Of a stretch of DNA of 45,889 nucleotides, positions 14,703 to 37,668 are shown piece after piece (within the stretch, counting starts at the first letter, position 1; the number at the start of each line of letters is the position of its first letter). The notes under the pieces were generated by a model, which had not been told where the DNA came from, did no database searches, and was given only the letters and a program-made list of their open reading frames with translations. This DNA comes from an uncultured Chitinophagaceae bacterium. Lineage in GTDB: Bacteria; Bacteroidota; Bacteroidia; Chitinophagales; Chitinophagaceae. The stretch covers positions 1 to 45,889 of the forward strand of contig CALIIL010000003.1 of NCBI GenBank assembly GCA_938017685.1. The letters are read 5' to 3'. The position numbers and the translations under genes were made by a program.

Positions 14703-14727
14703 AATTTAAACTATCAAAATATACGCA

Positions 14728-14756
14728 AGGGCAACTTATTAAGTTGTCCTTTTTTT
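14728..14756 (+). terminator. Rho-independent terminator after DUF1501 gene
   Basis: GGGCAACTT-ATT-AAGTTGTCC followed by T7. Confidence 0.8.
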
Positions 14757-14890: not shown

Positions 14891-16252
14891 ATGACAAAAC
14901 GAACATTGTTTTCTTTAGTCCTTTGCATGACTATCAGCATATTTCCTACAAGCACAAATGCTCAAAATACAAACCCACCAATGGGTGATTGCGAGAACTT
15001 ATTCATTTCTGAAATAACCTTTGGCAAAAGTCAGAACGGCAACTTTTTTGACTTAAATTATGCGATTGAGATTTATAACCCAACAGATATGCCTATAAAC
15101 TTAGCTGCTTACAAATTAGAGTTAACAGATTTGATGCTGAACGTTTATAGTTTTCCCATGGATGGGATTATCAATGCTGGCGAAGTGCATGTAGTCTGTA
15201 ATTCCAATGCCGATTTGAACTTACAAGGAATGGCGGATGAGCTTTCAGCAGGCATGGATTTTGAATTATACGCATGTCTAGAATTAATGCAGGGTAATAT
15301 AGTATTGGATAAAATAGGTCAGAAATTTTCAAATAATCCAAACAACTCATTTGATCCTGTGTTATTTGTTCAAGACCCGTTTAATTACATGCTTAATTAT
15401 GACTTGAACCTTAATGAGATAGAGAATATTAGCCTTCGAAGAGGCTACTTTGAGAAAAAAGGGGACCCAGTATTTAGCCCAGCTGCTGATGCTCTAATTG
15501 GACATTGGTCGTTTCATCAAAATACCAACAGAAGTAATATTGGTATACACGCCAATGAATGCCAGCCTGAAGCAGAATTTATGATTGGTTTTAAACCGGT
15601 GGCACCCGCTGTTTTTAGAGTTGATTTATTAAACACTGGTTTAAATAATTACTTATTCATTTACCATCCTTCAATTCCACCTAATTATCCATTTTCCTTT
15701 AATACAACTTACTCGAATGACCCCTTTGTATCTACTGCAAGCATTGGTGTATTTTCAGCTGAAGGAGTAAACTGCGTGGCTGTTTTTGGTTCCGATTACG
15801 GATCTGATACAAGTACGACCTGTACCATGACTAAGTTTAATGCAGGAGGACTACAATCATCTTGTGAACACATCCAATATTATAGAAGCATCAATGTTAC
15901 TCCGCCATCTGAGTTTGTAAAAATAGATTTGTCTTCAAATACACCTGGAGTTACGGTTGACTCTGCATCAAATAAATTCTTTGTCTATTTTGAAAAGTGG
16001 CCAACCGCAATAAATAAATACGATAAGTTGGATGTTAAAGTTTATCCTACATTGTTCTATGACAATATCTCGGTAGCATTACTAGAAGAAGGTGAATATT
16101 CTATCTATGATTTTAATGGAGCAATAGTTAAAAAAGGGAAGCTGTTAAAAGGAGAAAACCTTATAGCTTTGACACACTTATCCATCGGAACATATATATT
16201 GCGTATCAACAATAAAAAACACGTTCAAGCGATTAAAATTCAGAAACTATAG
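14891..16252 (+). CDS. Secreted lamin-tail-like protein with T9SS-type C-terminal domain
   Basis: Signal peptide ..STNAQ; LFISEITFGKSQNGNFFDLNYAIEIYNPTDMPINLAAYKLEL; C-term VYPTLFYDNISVALLEEGEYSIYDFNGAIVKKGKL...GTYILRINNKKHVQAIKIQKL. Confidence 0.75.
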   Translation: MTKRTLFSLVLCMTISIFPTSTNAQNTNPPMGDCENLFISEITFGKSQNGNFFDLNYAIEIYNPTDMPINLAAYKLELTDLMLNVYSFPMDGIINAGEVHVVCNSNADLNLQGMADELSAGMDFELYACLELMQGNIVLDKIGQKFSNNPNNSFDPVLFVQDPFNYMLNYDLNLNEIENISLRRGYFEKKGDPVFSPAADALIGHWSFHQNTNRSNIGIHANECQPEAEFMIGFKPVAPAVFRVDLLNTGLNNYLFIYHPSIPPNYPFSFNTTYSNDPFVSTASIGVFSAEGVNCVAVFGSDYGSDTSTTCTMTKFNAGGLQSSCEHIQYYRSINVTPPSEFVKIDLSSNTPGVTVDSASNKFFVYFEKWPTAINKYDKLDVKVYPTLFYDNISVALLEEGEYSIYDFNGAIVKKGKLLKGENLIALTHLSIGTYILRINNKKHVQAIKIQKL

Positions 16253-16253
16253 T

Positions 16254-16988
16254 ATGCGCATTTTTATTTTAAGCCTATTTTTTTTGGCCAAAGGGGCTTA
16301 TGCTCAAGAGTTTAATATTTTTGTTGGTTTGCGAAATATGGATCGAAGTAATAGGAAATTGCAATCGTTGAGACAGGAACTTGCTTATTCCAATGAGGTT
16401 TTAAACTATCCAATAAATTACATAGCTGGGGTTTCGTCTTATAAAAAAAATAAGTATCGAATTTCACTTGGGTTAGGCTACTCAAGTTTAAAATGGGATA
16501 GGAACCGCAGATATGTTCAATATGTTCCTAGCGATACAACGGCTCGTCTATATGAGTATACAAGTACAAACCAGAATCAAACCTATAGGCTAATGTTGGA
16601 CTATATGCGCTTTGAAAGAATAGGAAACTTGCAGTTGGGTTATGGTGCAGAAATTTATGCATCGCTCAATCATAAGGACTATTTTGAACATCATTATAAT
16701 GGTTCAACAGACTTAAGCCCTCAAAACTTCGCTCGTTATGGTAATTTTAGTAGAACTTATCCCAATATTTGGACTTTTCAGCCAGCACTTAAGGGAGGTG
16801 CTTATTATCAATTAATGGGTAACTTAACTTTGGGTGTTGAGCTTATGCCTAATCTTCGCTATGAGATTGTTAATACCAAGAACAAAAAACTAACCTATAA
16901 TAGACGCGAAATATCTAACGCTATTGAGTTTGAGATTTGGGGGCAACTAATAATGAGTTATAAAATTTTTAGTCATGAAAAAAAGTAG
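16254..16988 (+). CDS. Putative outer-membrane beta-barrel protein of unknown function
   Basis: Signal peptide AYAQ; alternating amphipathic aromatic strands; starts 2 nt after the previous stop. Confidence 0.55.
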   Translation: MRIFILSLFFLAKGAYAQEFNIFVGLRNMDRSNRKLQSLRQELAYSNEVLNYPINYIAGVSSYKKNKYRISLGLGYSSLKWDRNRRYVQYVPSDTTARLYEYTSTNQNQTYRLMLDYMRFERIGNLQLGYGAEIYASLNHKDYFEHHYNGSTDLSPQNFARYGNFSRTYPNIWTFQPALKGGAYYQLMGNLTLGVELMPNLRYEIVNTKNKKLTYNRREISNAIEFEIWGQLIMSYKIFSHEKK

Positions 16989-17694
16989 TTTACTCTTCAT
17001 CTTCATCTTAATAGGAATAAATGCGCAAGCACAAACAGGCGAAGTCTTTGTGGGTTTAAATTCTTTAGCGGGTTACAATTATAAAATAATTGAAGATAAT
17101 TCTATGAATGATATAAGCCAAGTTAACGATTTCAGTTACCTTACAGGTTACAATCACTTTATGAAGAATGACCTCTATGTGGGCTTGGGTATCGGCTATA
17201 ATTCGCCAGCATCAACAACTAAAGTGGTACAATCTAATGTAATAAGTATTACAACAACATTTGAAGTTTATACTCGCAAGTATTATAATGCACAACTACA
17301 TATTGGTAAGCTCAATAAGTATAAGCGCTTTCGATTATACTCGCAACTAGCAATCACTTACGCCACATTCAGAAAGTTAAATATTGCTGGGGATAGAACA
17401 GTGATAGATAGTAGCAATGTACAAACAAGCCTTGCCATAGTGGAAGTAATCTTACCCAACGAACATAGATTTGGGCTACATGCAGGGCAAGGCGTATATT
17501 ATAAACTATATAAAGGCTTGTACATTGGCGCTGACTTGAATATGACCTTTAATTACACTAAAGTCAAAGGAGAATATACCAGTACAGAAAAAACGAATGG
17601 ACAATTGACTATAGATGATGCTCAATTATACAATAATACTGCTTATGATTTGGGGTTTGTACCCATTTTGGGTTTGAAATATGTTTTTAAGTAG
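16975..17694 (+). CDS. Putative outer-membrane beta-barrel protein, likely distant paralog of the preceding gene
   Basis: Signal peptide AQAQ then (E)VFVGLNSL as in FNIFVGLRNM upstream; overlaps it by 14 nt; C-terminal LGLKYVFK. Confidence 0.55.
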   Translation: MKKSSLLFIFILIGINAQAQTGEVFVGLNSLAGYNYKIIEDNSMNDISQVNDFSYLTGYNHFMKNDLYVGLGIGYNSPASTTKVVQSNVISITTTFEVYTRKYYNAQLHIGKLNKYKRFRLYSQLAITYATFRKLNIAGDRTVIDSSNVQTSLAIVEVILPNEHRFGLHAGQGVYYKLYKGLYIGADLNMTFNYTKVKGEYTSTEKTNGQLTIDDAQLYNNTAYDLGFVPILGLKYVFK

Positions 17695-30580: not shown

Positions 30581-31852
30581 TTAGTCGTCTTTACTTTTTC
30601 GACTATCGTTTTTGTCCTCTTTCTTTGGCTTACCTTTTACAAACTCGCCAAAGTTCTCCATATCGAACATTAAAGTAAATCGTAATGTATTAGATAATGG
30701 ATTTCTATTTTGACCTGAACCAGAAGGAACTAAATAAGCAAAGTCTAAGCCAAATACATTGTACTTAACACCTAAGCCTAATGTAAAATATCTTCTATCT
30801 CCTTTTAACTGACTTTCGTAGAAGTAACCTGCTCTGGCAAAGAATTGTTCTTGATATCCGTACTCTACACCTACGCTTGTCATAACTTCTTTTAACTCCT
30901 CGCTTCCACCATCTGGCGCATCGTTAAATGAACCGAATATTCCGCTCAATACAGTCTTGTCTGTTGGGTAATATAACTCTTGCTGGTCATTACTATCCAA
31001 ACGAATTAATGGTGAAGGGACCAACAATTTGTTCAAATCTAAAGCAAATGTCAATTTGTTATACTCATCAATATAATACTCGTAAGCTGCTCCAAGACCA
31101 ATATTAGTTGGAATAAAATCTTTTCGGTCAGTAGAGTATGAAACCTTTGTACCTAAGTTAGTCACGGCTAAGCCAAGATTTAATCTTGAACCTAAACCTT
31201 CGCCCATATCCGGACCAATGCGTGTAGAGTAATAAGCACCAAAATCAACAGCAAATGACTTACCAGGACTATAGTTAGAACCAGCTGTTGCTGCGCCATT
31301 AATAATATTTGAACTGATATATTTACCCGTTAAACCAATGGCAAATTTTTCTGAAAGCGCACGAGAATAACCTGCACTCACTGCAAATTCTCTTGGCTTA
31401 CCAGTTCCAATATTCTGAGCATTGATATCAGTATAACTAATATCTCCTAATGAGAAATAGCGCAGACCAATGCTTACCGCTTGATTTTTATTATCTTCCT
31501 CGCCAAATTTAAAGTAGCCAGCAATATTCGTTAAGCTAATATCTGGAACTAAATCTCTTAACCATGGAGTGTAAGATATAGATACACCAGCTTCCTTTTT
31601 CATTAAGGCTAGTTTTGATACATTCCAGTATTGAGCATTCGCATCTGGGCTTAAAGCAATACCTACATCACCCATACCACCGCTTCTTGCATCTGGACTA
31701 ATACGCATAAATGGAACAGCTGTTGTAATGGTACGATATTCATCCCCTACAGTTTGTCCGCTGCCACTCCCCGTTCCTGATTGTGCCAAAGCATAATCCG
31801 CCGCAAATACACTTAGCAATAAAGTGCATATCAATAATTTATTAAGATTCAT
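30581..31852 (-). CDS. porV: T9SS outer-membrane protein PorV (LptO)
   Basis: TAVPFMRISPDARSGGMGDVGIALSPDANAQYWNVSKLA is diagnostic; downstream of porU. Confidence 0.95.
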   Translation of the reverse strand: MNLNKLLICTLLLSVFAADYALAQSGTGSGSGQTVGDEYRTITTAVPFMRISPDARSGGMGDVGIALSPDANAQYWNVSKLALMKKEAGVSISYTPWLRDLVPDISLTNIAGYFKFGEEDNKNQAVSIGLRYFSLGDISYTDINAQNIGTGKPREFAVSAGYSRALSEKFAIGLTGKYISSNIINGAATAGSNYSPGKSFAVDFGAYYSTRIGPDMGEGLGSRLNLGLAVTNLGTKVSYSTDRKDFIPTNIGLGAAYEYYIDEYNKLTFALDLNKLLVPSPLIRLDSNDQQELYYPTDKTVLSGIFGSFNDAPDGGSEELKEVMTSVGVEYGYQEQFFARAGYFYESQLKGDRRYFTLGLGVKYNVFGLDFAYLVPSGSGQNRNPLSNTLRFTLMFDMENFGEFVKGKPKKEDKNDSRKSKDD

Positions 31853-31952
31853 TAAGTATGTGTTTTATAAAATAAAGTAGATTTCTAAACTATACGCGAT
31901 GATATTATTAGCTGTTATTAAATATGTGACTACAAATGAACGATAAATATAC

Positions 31953-34900
31953 CTATCTAAGTATAAATAGCTTCTGAATTTTTTGATCTGAGAAGCCGTT
32001 TTGACTTTTCACTGACAATCGGTACAGATATACACCATTTCCCAGCATATCGCCGTATTGATCCTTACCATCCCAGAATATTTGATCATAACGCGTTCCT
32101 GAGGTATTAATTGTGCGCTTTATATTCTTGACCACACTACCCGAAATGCTAAATATCTTAATATCAATATCCAAGTTTTCATTAGGCATATTATGCTCAA
32201 ACATGAACTGAGTGCGTGTGCTAAAAGGATTGGGGTAATTATATACATGTGCTAACTTCCCTTCAGTATCATTTACAACCACAAAGTCTAAACGAGCTTC
32301 TGATGAGTTATTAAATACATCCCACGCTTTAATAATTAGGGTATGAGGCCCTTCGGCGAGATCATTTAAAGGAAAACGAACCACACCGCGCTGATAATCA
32401 TCCAAATCCGACTCGTAGAACGTATTGAGCACATATGAATTTTGAGCATTGCCATCTAATACGGCTGTAATATCGTGCCCTACTGAATTACCAGTATAAT
32501 TAATTCCATTCTCATCGAACAATTTTGCAATTAATAATGAGTTGGCTTTGGTTATTCCGCCATTCACAAACTTTTCATCATTTAAGAAAGGCTCAATGGT
32601 AGGACCTTGATTATCCTCAATGGGATTAGATGAGCTACCGCCTATTAATGGCAGTGAAAAACCAGTACCATCCTCCGTATCATTATTAGCGTAATAACTG
32701 ATTTTACCCTCTGCGATTGTATAATTAATATCTTTAGGCACTACAAAGGTGAAACTAAACTTACCATCTTTTACACTAGCCTTTCCATTATACAATGTAT
32801 TGTTTTGTACAAAAAAGTTGGCTGGGTAACTACCCGCTGTGCCAATTCCTTGCGGATCATTGCCCAAGGTCGTTAGTTGCTTAGGCTTATCAAATACAGT
32901 AGGGTACACCAATCCATTAAAACTATTCAGCGCGTTGCCATCCACATCATTTACATGACCCGATATAGTGTACTTGCCTAGTGCCTTTAATGTATCTGTA
33001 AATGCTGCGACAGCCGTTCCATTAATACTATCGGTTACCACTCTATGCTTTGGAAATGCCAAAGGCAAACCAGGATCACCAATTAAAGCAAACTTTCTAA
33101 AGTTAGTGGCAGAAATAATGCCTAGCGCATTGGAATATTGAATGTTCTTGGAATCACGGTAAGCATCGCCTAAAGTTGGGTCTTTGCCATTAATTTTTTT
33201 AAAACCTCCTTTGAAATAATTAATATTCATAACGCCATTGCCTGGTACGTATACCAAGCGAGTGGTTGTCATTAATGCAATAGCACCTCCATCTGGGTTA
33301 AGCATTAATATCTCCCCGGCAGATTTAAGTTCTGGGTTGTCAAATTGTGTAAAGTCACAAGTGGCTGTGATATATAAGGGCAGTTTATCCTTATTGGTAA
33401 ATCCATTGATATCATCCATAGTCAAAATACGCTCCTCACACCAGCCTAATGGACCACCATGACCGTTATAATTAACTAAGAAGGTGCCGTTAAATATTCT
33501 GTTCTTAAAAGCTACTTGAGCATCAGGCGTTCTTGGCCCTGCTGGTGTACTTTGTTGTACGTAAGCATCAATATAATTCTTGTATATGTTATACTGCGGC
33601 AAGCTGTCAGTCACATATTTAGACATTTGTTCTGCATCATTAAAATGGTGATTAGCATCTTCATCATCGGCATTAAATAACATCACATTTTTCCATGGGC
33701 CAAATGAATTTGCTCCATCATAATAAATTATTTTATCTACAATGCCATTGGCTTCTGTAGCTGATTGACAAGGGATACGACCAATGCCTAGATCCACTGT
33801 ATTGGCAATAGAATAGTCATTGAAGTCTTCGGTATCATCTAAAAATCCGTAAAAATCATCAGTGCAATAAGAATAGGTTTTGTCCAAGCTAGTATCCGTT
33901 TCATAAGTTGGAACGTAATTAGTGTTATCCTTTGTAAGGTTCCTATAATCATAAGAAGCATCGCCAAACAATAATATACCAGTAGGAATATCCGCTAGTG
34001 TTGATGCTCTGTCGTACAGCATTTTAATATAATCTCTAATAGCACTTACATCTTGAGAGCCGCTCGAAAACTCATTATAAATTTCTTGCGGTGTTACAAC
34101 CAATGAACGATACCCTCTCTTTGTTGTGTGATAATTAGCCAAGCGAGTGGCTGCTGCTTTAAAGCTAGGGTGCGTAATAATTACATAATCCTTGTTTACA
34201 CTCGCATGTAAATTTTGATTAGCCACAGCGCCAACAGCCGTTGGAGTAAAGGTCGAAGTACCATCAAATGAAATAAATGTATGCAAGCTATCGGCTTGTT
34301 GTTTAAATGATTTTTTATTGGACCCAATATCAGTAGTTGGTAGGCTTACAACATTTATAGGATCGGTAACATCCCATACTTTTGTATTAGCATTGGTATT
34401 GCCTATTTCATACTCCACTATATTACCCACGCCTACGGTATTCCAATCTGCGAATCGTTGATATTTATTTTGTATTAAACTTCTACGACCATTGACTTCA
34501 ATAAAATCTAAGTAACCCAACGCGCTATTATTTCCTTGTGTAAATTTTACTCCTATATTTAAGGTACTGGCAGCATAATTATTAAGGGTAGCTGTAAAGT
34601 CGCTATCCTCAGCTATGGGGTCAAAATACTGAAACCCAACTGGAAGCAAACTAAATGTATGCAAGGCTGACCCATTGGCTGTAATATTAAAGTAATTGGT
34701 CCCTGATGATGAAATAGCACACACCCTCGTTCTTACATAAGTTGGCTCTGAAGCAATAGCATTAGGCGTAGCAAATGAAAATGAACGCGATAAACTCTTG
34801 CCTGGTAAATCAGAGTAATCAATAGACCACCAGCGCTTACCGGACTTACCAAGATTTAAAGAATCAGGGTTGTAAAAACTAAAATAATTTCCGGTGGATG

Positions 34901-35771
34901 TGCTTTGGTTAGCCGGAGCTGTAACACTTTGAGCAGTTATGCGGTTACCGTTAGCTCCTTGCACATTTATAAAATAATAAGCGTTATAATTATATACATT
35001 GAGCTTATGACTAAATCTTTTATTGACACTGTCTTTAATAATACTATGCGGACCATTGGCATAAAACAACACATAGTCTGATGCATTAAATGTTCCATCA
35101 GATTCACCAACAACTTCAATAGCATTTTCGGCTAGGTCATCATGTCTGAATATTGCATTTCCCTCGGCCAGCATCTCACCACCATGGCCGTACACTTTAA
35201 TTTTTCGAGGATCAATATTATCTGGATTAATACCTAATTCATTTTTAAAGAAATTGTAATCCATTTTAAATAAACCTTGATTTCTAATCGCTACTTTATA
35301 CCAAGTACCTGTGGCCAATGCTGAGTTGGCTGCATATACGCGGCTACCTGCTGTTTTTTGAGATGCATTGACTTGTTGCACATCAAAATCAAATGATTCC
35401 AACATTTCAACACGACCGTTTCTATTAATATATCGTGGAACAAATACTTGGGCAAATGCTTTCTTACGTTCCATACCTAGCTTAATATCGAGCTTGTAAT
35501 TGAAGGGTAATTTATCCAAATGTTTCGTGGAGCTAAGTGGTTTTGTCTTCGTATTAATCAGTTTGATTGTAGGCATCGCATAATTATTCAATGCTACTTT
35601 TCGCACGTAAAACAGCTTAAATGTATCGACAACTTCTTCTTTTACAACAACTGTATTTATAGCAGTTGTTGCTCGGCTAGGCATTTCATTTACTACACTA
35701 TTCTGCGCCTGAACGCTGAATGTTATAAGCAAACAAAGACTGGACAATAAGGCGGACCTTCTCAATATCAT
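31953..35771 (-). CDS. porU: T9SS C-terminal signal peptidase PorU (gingipain-like C25 peptidase)
   Basis: WYKVAIRNQGLFKMDYNFFKNELGI, C25 domain with VNYNGHGG and ITATCDFTQFD, C-terminal NYPNPFSTRTQFMFEHN. Confidence 0.95.
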   Translation of the reverse strand: MILRRSALLSSLCLLITFSVQAQNSVVNEMPSRATTAINTVVVKEEVVDTFKLFYVRKVALNNYAMPTIKLINTKTKPLSSTKHLDKLPFNYKLDIKLGMERKKAFAQVFVPRYINRNGRVEMLESFDFDVQQVNASQKTAGSRVYAANSALATGTWYKVAIRNQGLFKMDYNFFKNELGINPDNIDPRKIKVYGHGGEMLAEGNAIFRHDDLAENAIEVVGESDGTFNASDYVLFYANGPHSIIKDSVNKRFSHKLNVYNYNAYYFINVQGANGNRITAQSVTAPANQSTSTGNYFSFYNPDSLNLGKSGKRWWSIDYSDLPGKSLSRSFSFATPNAIASEPTYVRTRVCAISSSGTNYFNITANGSALHTFSLLPVGFQYFDPIAEDSDFTATLNNYAASTLNIGVKFTQGNNSALGYLDFIEVNGRRSLIQNKYQRFADWNTVGVGNIVEYEIGNTNANTKVWDVTDPINVVSLPTTDIGSNKKSFKQQADSLHTFISFDGTSTFTPTAVGAVANQNLHASVNKDYVIITHPSFKAAATRLANYHTTKRGYRSLVVTPQEIYNEFSSGSQDVSAIRDYIKMLYDRASTLADIPTGILLFGDASYDYRNLTKDNTNYVPTYETDTSLDKTYSYCTDDFYGFLDDTEDFNDYSIANTVDLGIGRIPCQSATEANGIVDKIIYYDGANSFGPWKNVMLFNADDEDANHHFNDAEQMSKYVTDSLPQYNIYKNYIDAYVQQSTPAGPRTPDAQVAFKNRIFNGTFLVNYNGHGGPLGWCEERILTMDDINGFTNKDKLPLYITATCDFTQFDNPELKSAGEILMLNPDGGAIALMTTTRLVYVPGNGVMNINYFKGGFKKINGKDPTLGDAYRDSKNIQYSNALGIISATNFRKFALIGDPGLPLAFPKHRVVTDSINGTAVAAFTDTLKALGKYTISGHVNDVDGNALNSFNGLVYPTVFDKPKQLTTLGNDPQGIGTAGSYPANFFVQNNTLYNGKASVKDGKFSFTFVVPKDINYTIAEGKISYYANNDTEDGTGFSLPLIGGSSSNPIEDNQGPTIEPFLNDEKFVNGGITKANSLLIAKLFDENGINYTGNSVGHDITAVLDGNAQNSYVLNTFYESDLDDYQRGVVRFPLNDLAEGPHTLIIKAWDVFNNSSEARLDFVVVNDTEGKLAHVYNYPNPFSTRTQFMFEHNMPNENLDIDIKIFSISGSVVKNIKRTINTSGTRYDQIFWDGKDQYGDMLGNGVYLYRLSVKSQNGFSDQKIQKLFILR

Positions 35772-35888
35772 TATTTCAAATATAAATGGTTTTCAAATGC
35801 TTACGAAAAACTATGGCTTATGTTATAATAGCTTTTACATAACTATGACGTAAGCAAAACGAAGAACTGACTAGATTATTATACTCTT

Positions 35889-37238
35889 TTAGTCATTTTC
35901 GATGGGCTGTATATACATTTTTATCTTTTGTATACGCTTCCCTTCCAAACTAAGCACAGTAAACTGGAATTGTTCATGACTAACACGCTCATTAACCATT
36001 GGGAACTTACCTGCTAACTCTAGCACCAAACCAGCAATAGAATCACTTTCGCCTTTTACCTCATCAAAAGTATCAACCGCCAGTGAGGCAAAACGACAAG
36101 CATCATTAATCGAAGTCTTACCTTCGAATAAGTAGGTAGTTTCATTAATTTTCTTTGCTACGATATCATCGTCATCAAATTCATCTTGAATATCACCGAT
36201 GATCTCCTCCATAATATCCTCCAAGGTAACAAGACCCGATGTACCTCCAAATTCATCCACCACGATAGCTATATGATTTCGGCTTTGCTGAAACTCCTTT
36301 AGCAAGCTTTCGGCATACTTTGTTTCTGGCACATATACGGCTGGGCGCATTACACTTTTCCAATCAAAGGTTTCATTATCGGTATGTGGCAACAAATCTT
36401 TGGTGTGAATAATTCCAATAATTTTATCCAAATGCTCTTCAAATACCGGCATGCGGGAATAACCCAAGTCCGCGATAATCTCTTTTACCTTTCTAACGTT
36501 ATACTCTGCATTTAGTGCCGTCACATCCATGCGCGGTTTCATTATTTGCTTAACCTGTATCTCATCAAACTTTAATATGCTTTTAAAAATATTTACCTCC
36601 TCAATAGTAGCTGCATGGTTTCTTCCATCTTCAATAGCTTCCTGCAACTCCTCGGTGGTCATTTCTTTAGTATGCGATAGTCCCATTTTATTTAACAAAA
36701 ATTGTGTGCTATCAGCGAGGGAATTGCCCAGGCCACCAAAAACAAAATCAATAGGCCCCATAAAATTAGCAGCAAATAAGCTTAAACTAAACTTACTATT
36801 AGCCGCATGCACTCTAGGAATAACAATGCCGAGCAATAATAATAAAAGAGTAATGATTATTATAAAAACAGTATCATATACAGCATAAAGAACAGTATGG
36901 TCAATAACTGAAGATAACAATTGCGGTACAGACAAATCTTTAAGCCCTAAGTAACAAGCAATGGTAGCCGTAACTATAAAAAATAGCTGCGCAAGATATA
37001 AGCTAGACAATAAGCGCTTGGGCTTCTCAACTAGTCTTAATACTCTTTTGTAATTTGGTTTATTGCGCTTCTTTATTTGGTTCAGCTCCTTAGCCGATAA
37101 TCTAAAAAAAGCAACCTCGGCAACATTTACAATAGCTAGGTAAAAAATACTTAGCAAAACAATGAACCATAATACTATGGTGTAGACCAAATGAAGGCCT
37201 GCAGTTAATATTGTTAGGGAGAGAGGGTCTGGTTCCAA
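35889..37238 (-). CDS. gldE: Gliding motility-associated protein GldE (DUF21/CBS/CorC-HlyC transporter-type)
   Basis: DUF21 membrane domain, KQIMKPRMDVTALN, FEEHLDKIIGIIHTKDLLP, VDEFGGTSGLVTLEDIMEEIIGDIQDEFD; next to ssb-mutY. Confidence 0.85.
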   Translation of the reverse strand: MEPDPLSLTILTAGLHLVYTIVLWFIVLLSIFYLAIVNVAEVAFFRLSAKELNQIKKRNKPNYKRVLRLVEKPKRLLSSLYLAQLFFIVTATIACYLGLKDLSVPQLLSSVIDHTVLYAVYDTVFIIIITLLLLLLGIVIPRVHAANSKFSLSLFAANFMGPIDFVFGGLGNSLADSTQFLLNKMGLSHTKEMTTEELQEAIEDGRNHAATIEEVNIFKSILKFDEIQVKQIMKPRMDVTALNAEYNVRKVKEIIADLGYSRMPVFEEHLDKIIGIIHTKDLLPHTDNETFDWKSVMRPAVYVPETKYAESLLKEFQQSRNHIAIVVDEFGGTSGLVTLEDIMEEIIGDIQDEFDDDDIVAKKINETTYLFEGKTSINDACRFASLAVDTFDEVKGESDSIAGLVLELAGKFPMVNERVSHEQFQFTVLSLEGKRIQKIKMYIQPIEND

Positions 37239-37272
37239 TGGGGTAAGAATTTACAACAAAAGTAATTAATGA

Positions 37273-37668
37273 TTATTTATCCGAAGGTGTATCTGAAGGC
37301 GGAGTATTTAATTCTGGCACTTCACTTTCGTCATTAGGACGCTTATCCAGCATAACTAGGTTGGTAGCAATAATTTCCGTGCTTTGGCGTCTTATATTAT
37401 CCTTATCCTCCCAAGTTCTTGTGCGCAATCGTCCCTCAATATTTATGAGGCTTCCTTTATTTAAATATTTGGCAGCAAGCTCAGCTAGACCGCGCCATAA
37501 TACCACCGTATGCCACTCCGTTTGAGAGTTGAGCTTACCCGTTTTATCCTTAAAAGATTCTGTTGTTGCCAATGGAAATGTAGCCACAGGAATATTTCCC
37601 TCAAGATATTGTATCTCAGGTTTCTTACCCAAATTGCCAATCAAAAAAACTCTGTTTACTCCGCGCAT
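37273..37668 (-). CDS. ssb: Single-stranded DNA-binding protein
   Basis: MRGVNRVFLIGNLGKKPEIQY, TEWHTVVLWRGLAELAAKYLNKGSLINIEGRLRTRTW. Confidence 0.96.
   Translation of the reverse strand: MRGVNRVFLIGNLGKKPEIQYLEGNIPVATFPLATTESFKDKTGKLNSQTEWHTVVLWRGLAELAAKYLNKGSLINIEGRLRTRTWEDKDNIRRQSTEIIATNLVMLDKRPNDESEVPELNTPPSDTPSDK

Follow-up and report, generated by a model that had tools for sequence, protein, structure and literature searches.

A recurrent three-gene cassette encoding a T9SS lamin-tail protein and two putative small outer-membrane barrels in the Chitinophagales

Why would an uncultured Chitinophagaceae bacterium encode a lamin-tail protein tagged for the type IX secretion system (T9SS) directly ahead of two small putative outer-membrane barrels, and do the three proteins work together? 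The question arises from contig CALIIL010000003.1, of which a window of 45,889 nucleotides (the whole stretch of DNA analyzed) carries the three genes at positions 14891-17694. All are on the forward strand: the cargo gene (14891..16252, 453 amino acids), barrel 1 (16254..16988, 244 amino acids) and barrel 2 (16975..17694, 239 amino acids). The tight packing described in the initial annotation is exact, with a 1-nt gap between the cargo and barrel 1 and a 14-nt overlap between the barrels, and the strong intrinsic terminator that it placed ahead of the cassette was recovered at 14727..14751 on the same strand (11-bp stem, T-run/U-tract, z -2.76), dividing the cassette from an upstream DUF1800-DUF1501 pair. 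The 3' neighbor, encoded on the opposite strand, is a hydrolase of the metallo-beta-lactamase fold.

The cargo starts with a signal peptide, followed by a lamin-tail domain (LTD; residues 35-111, PF00932, E 1.2e-9, 38.9 bits against a gathering score of 34.3), a generic LTD tail at about residues 180-224 ending in the motif RRG..G.WSFH..SNIG.H..C, a middle region (about residues 235-375) to which no domain was assigned, and a type A T9SS sorting domain (CTD; residues 385-451, TIGR04183, E 2.6e-6, 27.3 bits against a cut-off of 23). PF18962 scored just under its cut-off of 27 in this protein (25.8 bits, E 1.3e-5) and over it in cargo homologs (37.3 and 28.7 bits). The LTD and TIGR04183 matches bear out the earlier description of a lamin-tail-like protein with a T9SS C-terminal domain, whose secretion is predicted. 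The structure model of the cargo was poor and of low confidence; seven strands predicted at 379-451 would fit a type A CTD, the rest of the model being too poor to interpret. No catalytic domain was recognized in the cargo, so that binding is its most likely function; nucleic acid is a possible ligand, because related lamin-tail proteins occur in DNase operons. A plasmid search with the cargo matched only lamin-tail nucleases and was set aside, and a search for lamin-tail plus T9SS found no paper in the literature collection consulted.

Both barrels carry a probable signal peptide, ending AYAQ in barrel 1 and AQAQ in barrel 2, and are distant paralogs as proposed, matching each other directly at 23-24% identity (E about 0.01). 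Pfam and NCBIfam scans of the two proteins at E up to 1 returned chance scores and no credible family. PorP/SprF models matched neither the window barrels (Pfam and NCBIfam, E up to 1) nor ten homologs (Pfam); with the type A, not type B, CTD of the cargo, this upholds the view that the barrels do not resemble PorP/SprF. No NCBIfam match to PorV/PorQ (NF033709) was obtained for the barrels either, the PorV_fam search of genome G000 did not list C3:16254-17694, and a PDB sequence search with the barrels gave no match. One of the ten barrel members matched Pfam OMP_b-brl at an E of only 0.42, which was counted as no family match.

The AF2 model of barrel 2, built from an alignment of four, is of modest confidence (pLDDT 57, pTM 0.48), with eight main strands and several low-confidence loops. 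Several of the modeled strands, at 23-29 residues, exceed the length needed to cross a membrane and suggest a beta-sheet above it. The best Foldseek matches among solved structures were the small barrels TtoA, OmpW, Ail and OmpX (best E 1.7e-4, TM about 0.5), and the C-terminus is aromatic and beta-signal-like (LGLKYVFK). The model is thus consistent with an OmpX/Ail-like barrel with a protruding sheet. In predicted fold and size the protein would resemble the OmpX/OmpW/Ail group (Pfam OMP_b-brl); unlike that group, the cassette barrels have no sequence-family match and come two in a row next to a T9SS cargo gene.

The arrangement recurs. Barrel 2 and the cargo, used as queries against the genome from which the window comes, led to a second complete trio on contig C30, on one strand and in the same order. 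Its cargo (453 amino acids) matches the window cargo over the full length at 32% identity (E 2.8e-55), and its barrels have 247 and 248 amino acids; the successive gaps between the three genes are 42 and 4 nt. A third complete trio lies in CANFST010000031.1 (G440), a Chitinophagales MAG from another family of the order, which was found independently by a four-barrel profile and by a profile of two cargo middle regions. Here the three genes are consecutive on one strand with gaps of 68 and 2 nt; the cargo of about 470 amino acids is a full-length match to that of the window (E 2e-81), and the barrels have 281 and 263 amino acids. Two further loci are incomplete: CP058707.1, an assembly that looks noisy, has a cargo and one barrel, both frameshifted, and CANJRV010000050.1 (L090:244-957) has a cargo 45% identical to that of the window and no barrels. 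The latter gene lies close to the contig end and stops ahead of the middle region and CTD, which makes it a remnant or an assembly break. A profile match in G643 (profile A3) sits inside a transporter gene and was rejected as spurious.

A single-sequence search with barrel 1 through 200 genomes of the family and wider genome contigs found nothing beyond the window's own genome, and profiles were needed to reach its relatives elsewhere. When a barrel profile was built from two cassettes and tested on the omitted one, the window barrels were recovered at E 1e-20 (barrel 2) and 4e-4 (barrel 1, the most divergent of the module barrels), those of C30 at 8e-23 and 5e-12, and those of G440 at 2e-18 and 6e-16, so by sequence profile the barrels are homologous between cassettes. 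The barrel tree did not separate first- from second-position barrels, leaving the idea of conserved separate roles for the two positions unsupported. In C30 and G440, the best cassette match of each barrel is its neighbor in the same cassette; the pairs may thus have had more than one origin, or may exchange sequence. Gene order and orientation are nevertheless kept in three loci from two families at about 20-33% identity, which is more than chance would give, and a genuine three-gene genetic unit is well supported. The surface module put forward in the initial annotation is in this sense real and recurrent, with barrels outside any described family.

How specific is the link between cargo and barrels? 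In a tree of 64 lamin-tail proteins (the CP058707.1 row being a fragment), the module cargos form one clade with an SH-aLRT of 100. Barrels follow the cargo in four of four assessable module loci and in none of 51 lamin-tail loci outside the module that have 1.5 kb or more of downstream sequence (Fisher p 3e-6, indicative only, as the sequences are related). At those other loci the barrel profile gave weak matches to proteins of 586-941 amino acids; these were for the most part TonB-dependent receptors and secreted endonucleases rather than small barrels. In a set of 31 genomes, most of them selected because they hold relatives of the barrels, the full-length cargo was present only in G000 and G440, both of which bear the cassette. 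The initial annotation had held that barrels occurring widely without the cargo would count against a dedicated partnership, and some such barrels do exist: solo relatives in G346, G162 and G233, a relative at a contig end in G340, and in G205 (L087:4162-6792) a tandem related pair behind a glucose/sorbosone dehydrogenase gene with no lamin-tail cargo. The G205 pair indicates that such barrels may have other partners. The barrel superfamily is therefore wider than the cassette, and while the members within the cassette look dedicated to the cargo, the superfamily as a whole does not. Profile A5, made from distant members, picked up a large number of generic small barrels throughout the class that lack a cargo, and was not used for family membership; matches in g33, g96 and other genera except G346 were left out as short, partial alignments with other small barrels.

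Congeners show the sites with and without the trio. In G168, of the same genus, the DUF1800-DUF1501 and MBL-TolB/barrel genes are kept, and between them lies only a putative lipoprotein of 158 amino acids. In G090, a second congener with a completeness of 99%, 63 nt lie between the M16 peptidase and CarboxypepD_reg genes, which are the neighbors of the cassette on C30, and no cassette was found elsewhere in that genome. With both cassettes at sites empty in a congener, the trio has been gained or lost as a unit, whether by gain here or by loss in the congeners; a single congener shows each site to be empty, G168 being 70% complete and the first site in G090 lying at a contig edge. No shared flanking sequence or insertion repeat was evident between the two cassettes of the genome, which are somewhat AT-rich (34.9% and 31.8% GC, compared with 37.2% for the window and 36.4% for the C30 stretch). 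The C30 stretch also holds mobilization genes (L036:68-3874; T4SS coupling protein, relaxase, DUF2958 and an excisionase-like HTH) 2.4 kb from the cassette, and a small XRE-type regulator (L036:9276-9512; HTH_3, E 4.9e-8) is encoded divergently from it. No XRE-type regulator was evident in the short gap upstream of the window cassette.

Outside the cassette, the same window encodes PorV (30581..31852, reverse strand; NF033710, E 1e-138) and the T9SS sortase PorU (31953..35771, reverse strand; NF033707, 1280 bits), 13-18 kb away. These T9SS attachment genes stand together with genes for a GldE-like protein and SSB at 30581-37668. PorV is the shuttle for cargo with type A CTDs, which are commonly cleaved by PorU. 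With both proteins encoded in the window, type A export would be available, and with a PorV route and PorU cleavage no dedicated barrel is strictly needed. Type A CTDs have been described as all using PorV (PMC12618676). Type B cargo instead relies on a PorP/SprF barrel whose gene is usually the next one downstream, and this barrel is thought also to anchor it (PMC12618676, PMC9143113).

The pairs SprB-SprF and PG1035-PorP thus share with the cassette a T9SS cargo followed directly by a barrel gene, whose product is there proposed to be a surface anchor. They differ in that their cargo has a type B CTD, that a single 14-stranded FadL-family barrel takes the place of two small ones, and that the cassette has no PorE-like gene and its barrels no PorP/SprF sequence match. 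The closest functional precedent is PorZ-PorQ, where a type A CTD protein, PorZ, is kept uncleaved at the surface on its own barrel, PorQ (PMC10202324). The barrel PorQ, however, belongs to the PorV family and is part of the T9SS attachment complex, whereas the window barrels match neither PorV nor PorQ, and the cassette cargo is not PorZ.

It is probable that the three proteins cooperate, and no described family covers how they would do so. We put at about 50% the reading in which the cargo is a T9SS-delivered surface protein whose dedicated outer-membrane partners, the two small barrels, hold or assemble it. The lamin-tail protein would be exported by Sec and then by the T9SS, its type A CTD taking the PorV route; the two barrels would be inserted in the outer membrane; and their protruding beta-sheet would serve to bind the cargo, holding or assembling it at the surface in a manner comparable to PorQ with PorZ or SprF with SprB, though with a different kind of barrel. 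This reading is favored over a shuttle function or mere co-transcription because the layout fits a cognate partner and the barrels are of another kind. The earlier idea of a cargo with dedicated barrel partners or anchors stands as regards a recurrent, co-inherited module, and it is from that co-inheritance that we infer an anchoring or serving role. Counting against such a role are the barrel relatives that lack the cargo and the loci CP058707.1 and CANJRV010000050.1, which have one barrel and none.

The layout shared with type B systems, in which the shuttle gene likewise lies directly downstream of its cargo (PMC12618676, PMC9143113), could also mean that the barrels are cargo-specific export shuttles: they would replace PorV in taking the lamin-tail protein from the SprA translocon, the part that PorP/SprF play in type B export. 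This is improbable given that the cargo CTD is type A and PorV-family proteins occur in both genomes; moreover, PorV and PorP are described as 14-stranded FadL-family barrels (PMC9143113), while the cassette barrels have about 220 mature amino acids, are modeled with eight strands and match neither family. It is comparably unlikely that the barrels are a pair of generic small outer-membrane proteins linked to a surface protein on one transcript simply through co-regulation or co-transfer, with no direct cooperation. Barrel homologs do stand alone in related genomes, and the cassettes are AT-rich with the C30 copy near mobilization genes, but order and orientation would then have to persist at such low identity across three loci and two families, and at two different sites in one genome.

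A further reading, only slightly less doubtful, takes its cue from other lamin-tail proteins. Of the 59 outside the module, 43 have 250-400 amino acids, and 42 of these 43 directly precede a TonB-dependent receptor; endonuclease I follows in 33 of the loci and is T9SS-tagged in two that were examined. L122:5998-12039 is an example, with 41 similar loci (L105-L159) mostly from Flavobacteriales and Bacteroidales. Like the cassette, these loci encode a lamin-tail protein with a type A CTD and then an outer-membrane barrel; unlike it, they combine the lamin-tail protein with a TonB-dependent receptor of about 900-940 amino acids and a secreted DNase instead of two small barrels, and the two sets of cargos fall in separate clades. 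The short lamin-tail loci are a possible operon for extracellular-DNA utilization, of which a thin literature search found no description, and they hint that lamin-tail surface proteins bind nucleic acids. By analogy, the surface lamin-tail protein of the cassette would capture a polymer, perhaps DNA or its fragments, with the barrels as small channels for the products. However, the cassettes include neither nuclease nor TonB-dependent receptor, and eight-stranded barrels usually have no open pore, the channel of OmpW being narrow and hydrophobic. Lamin-tail domains are also present in extracellular nucleases (PMC8289736), in line with such a capture function.

Returning to the two barrels as surface partners of the cargo, we tentatively suggest, with somewhat less confidence than in the partnership itself, an undescribed class of T9SS surface assemblies: a dedicated pair of small, non-FadL, eight-stranded barrels would retain or organize a type A CTD protein, and the three genes would pass among Bacteroidota as one cassette. 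This bears on the sorting of type A T9SS cargo to its different fates, namely release, A-LPS linkage and retention. If the proposed partnership is true, retention partners need not come from the PorV/PorP family, and the cassette, with its three genes, would be a compact means of testing the retention of type A cargo. Together with the TonB-dependent receptor loci, it suggests that, more generally, lamin-tail T9SS proteins go together with outer-membrane barrels.
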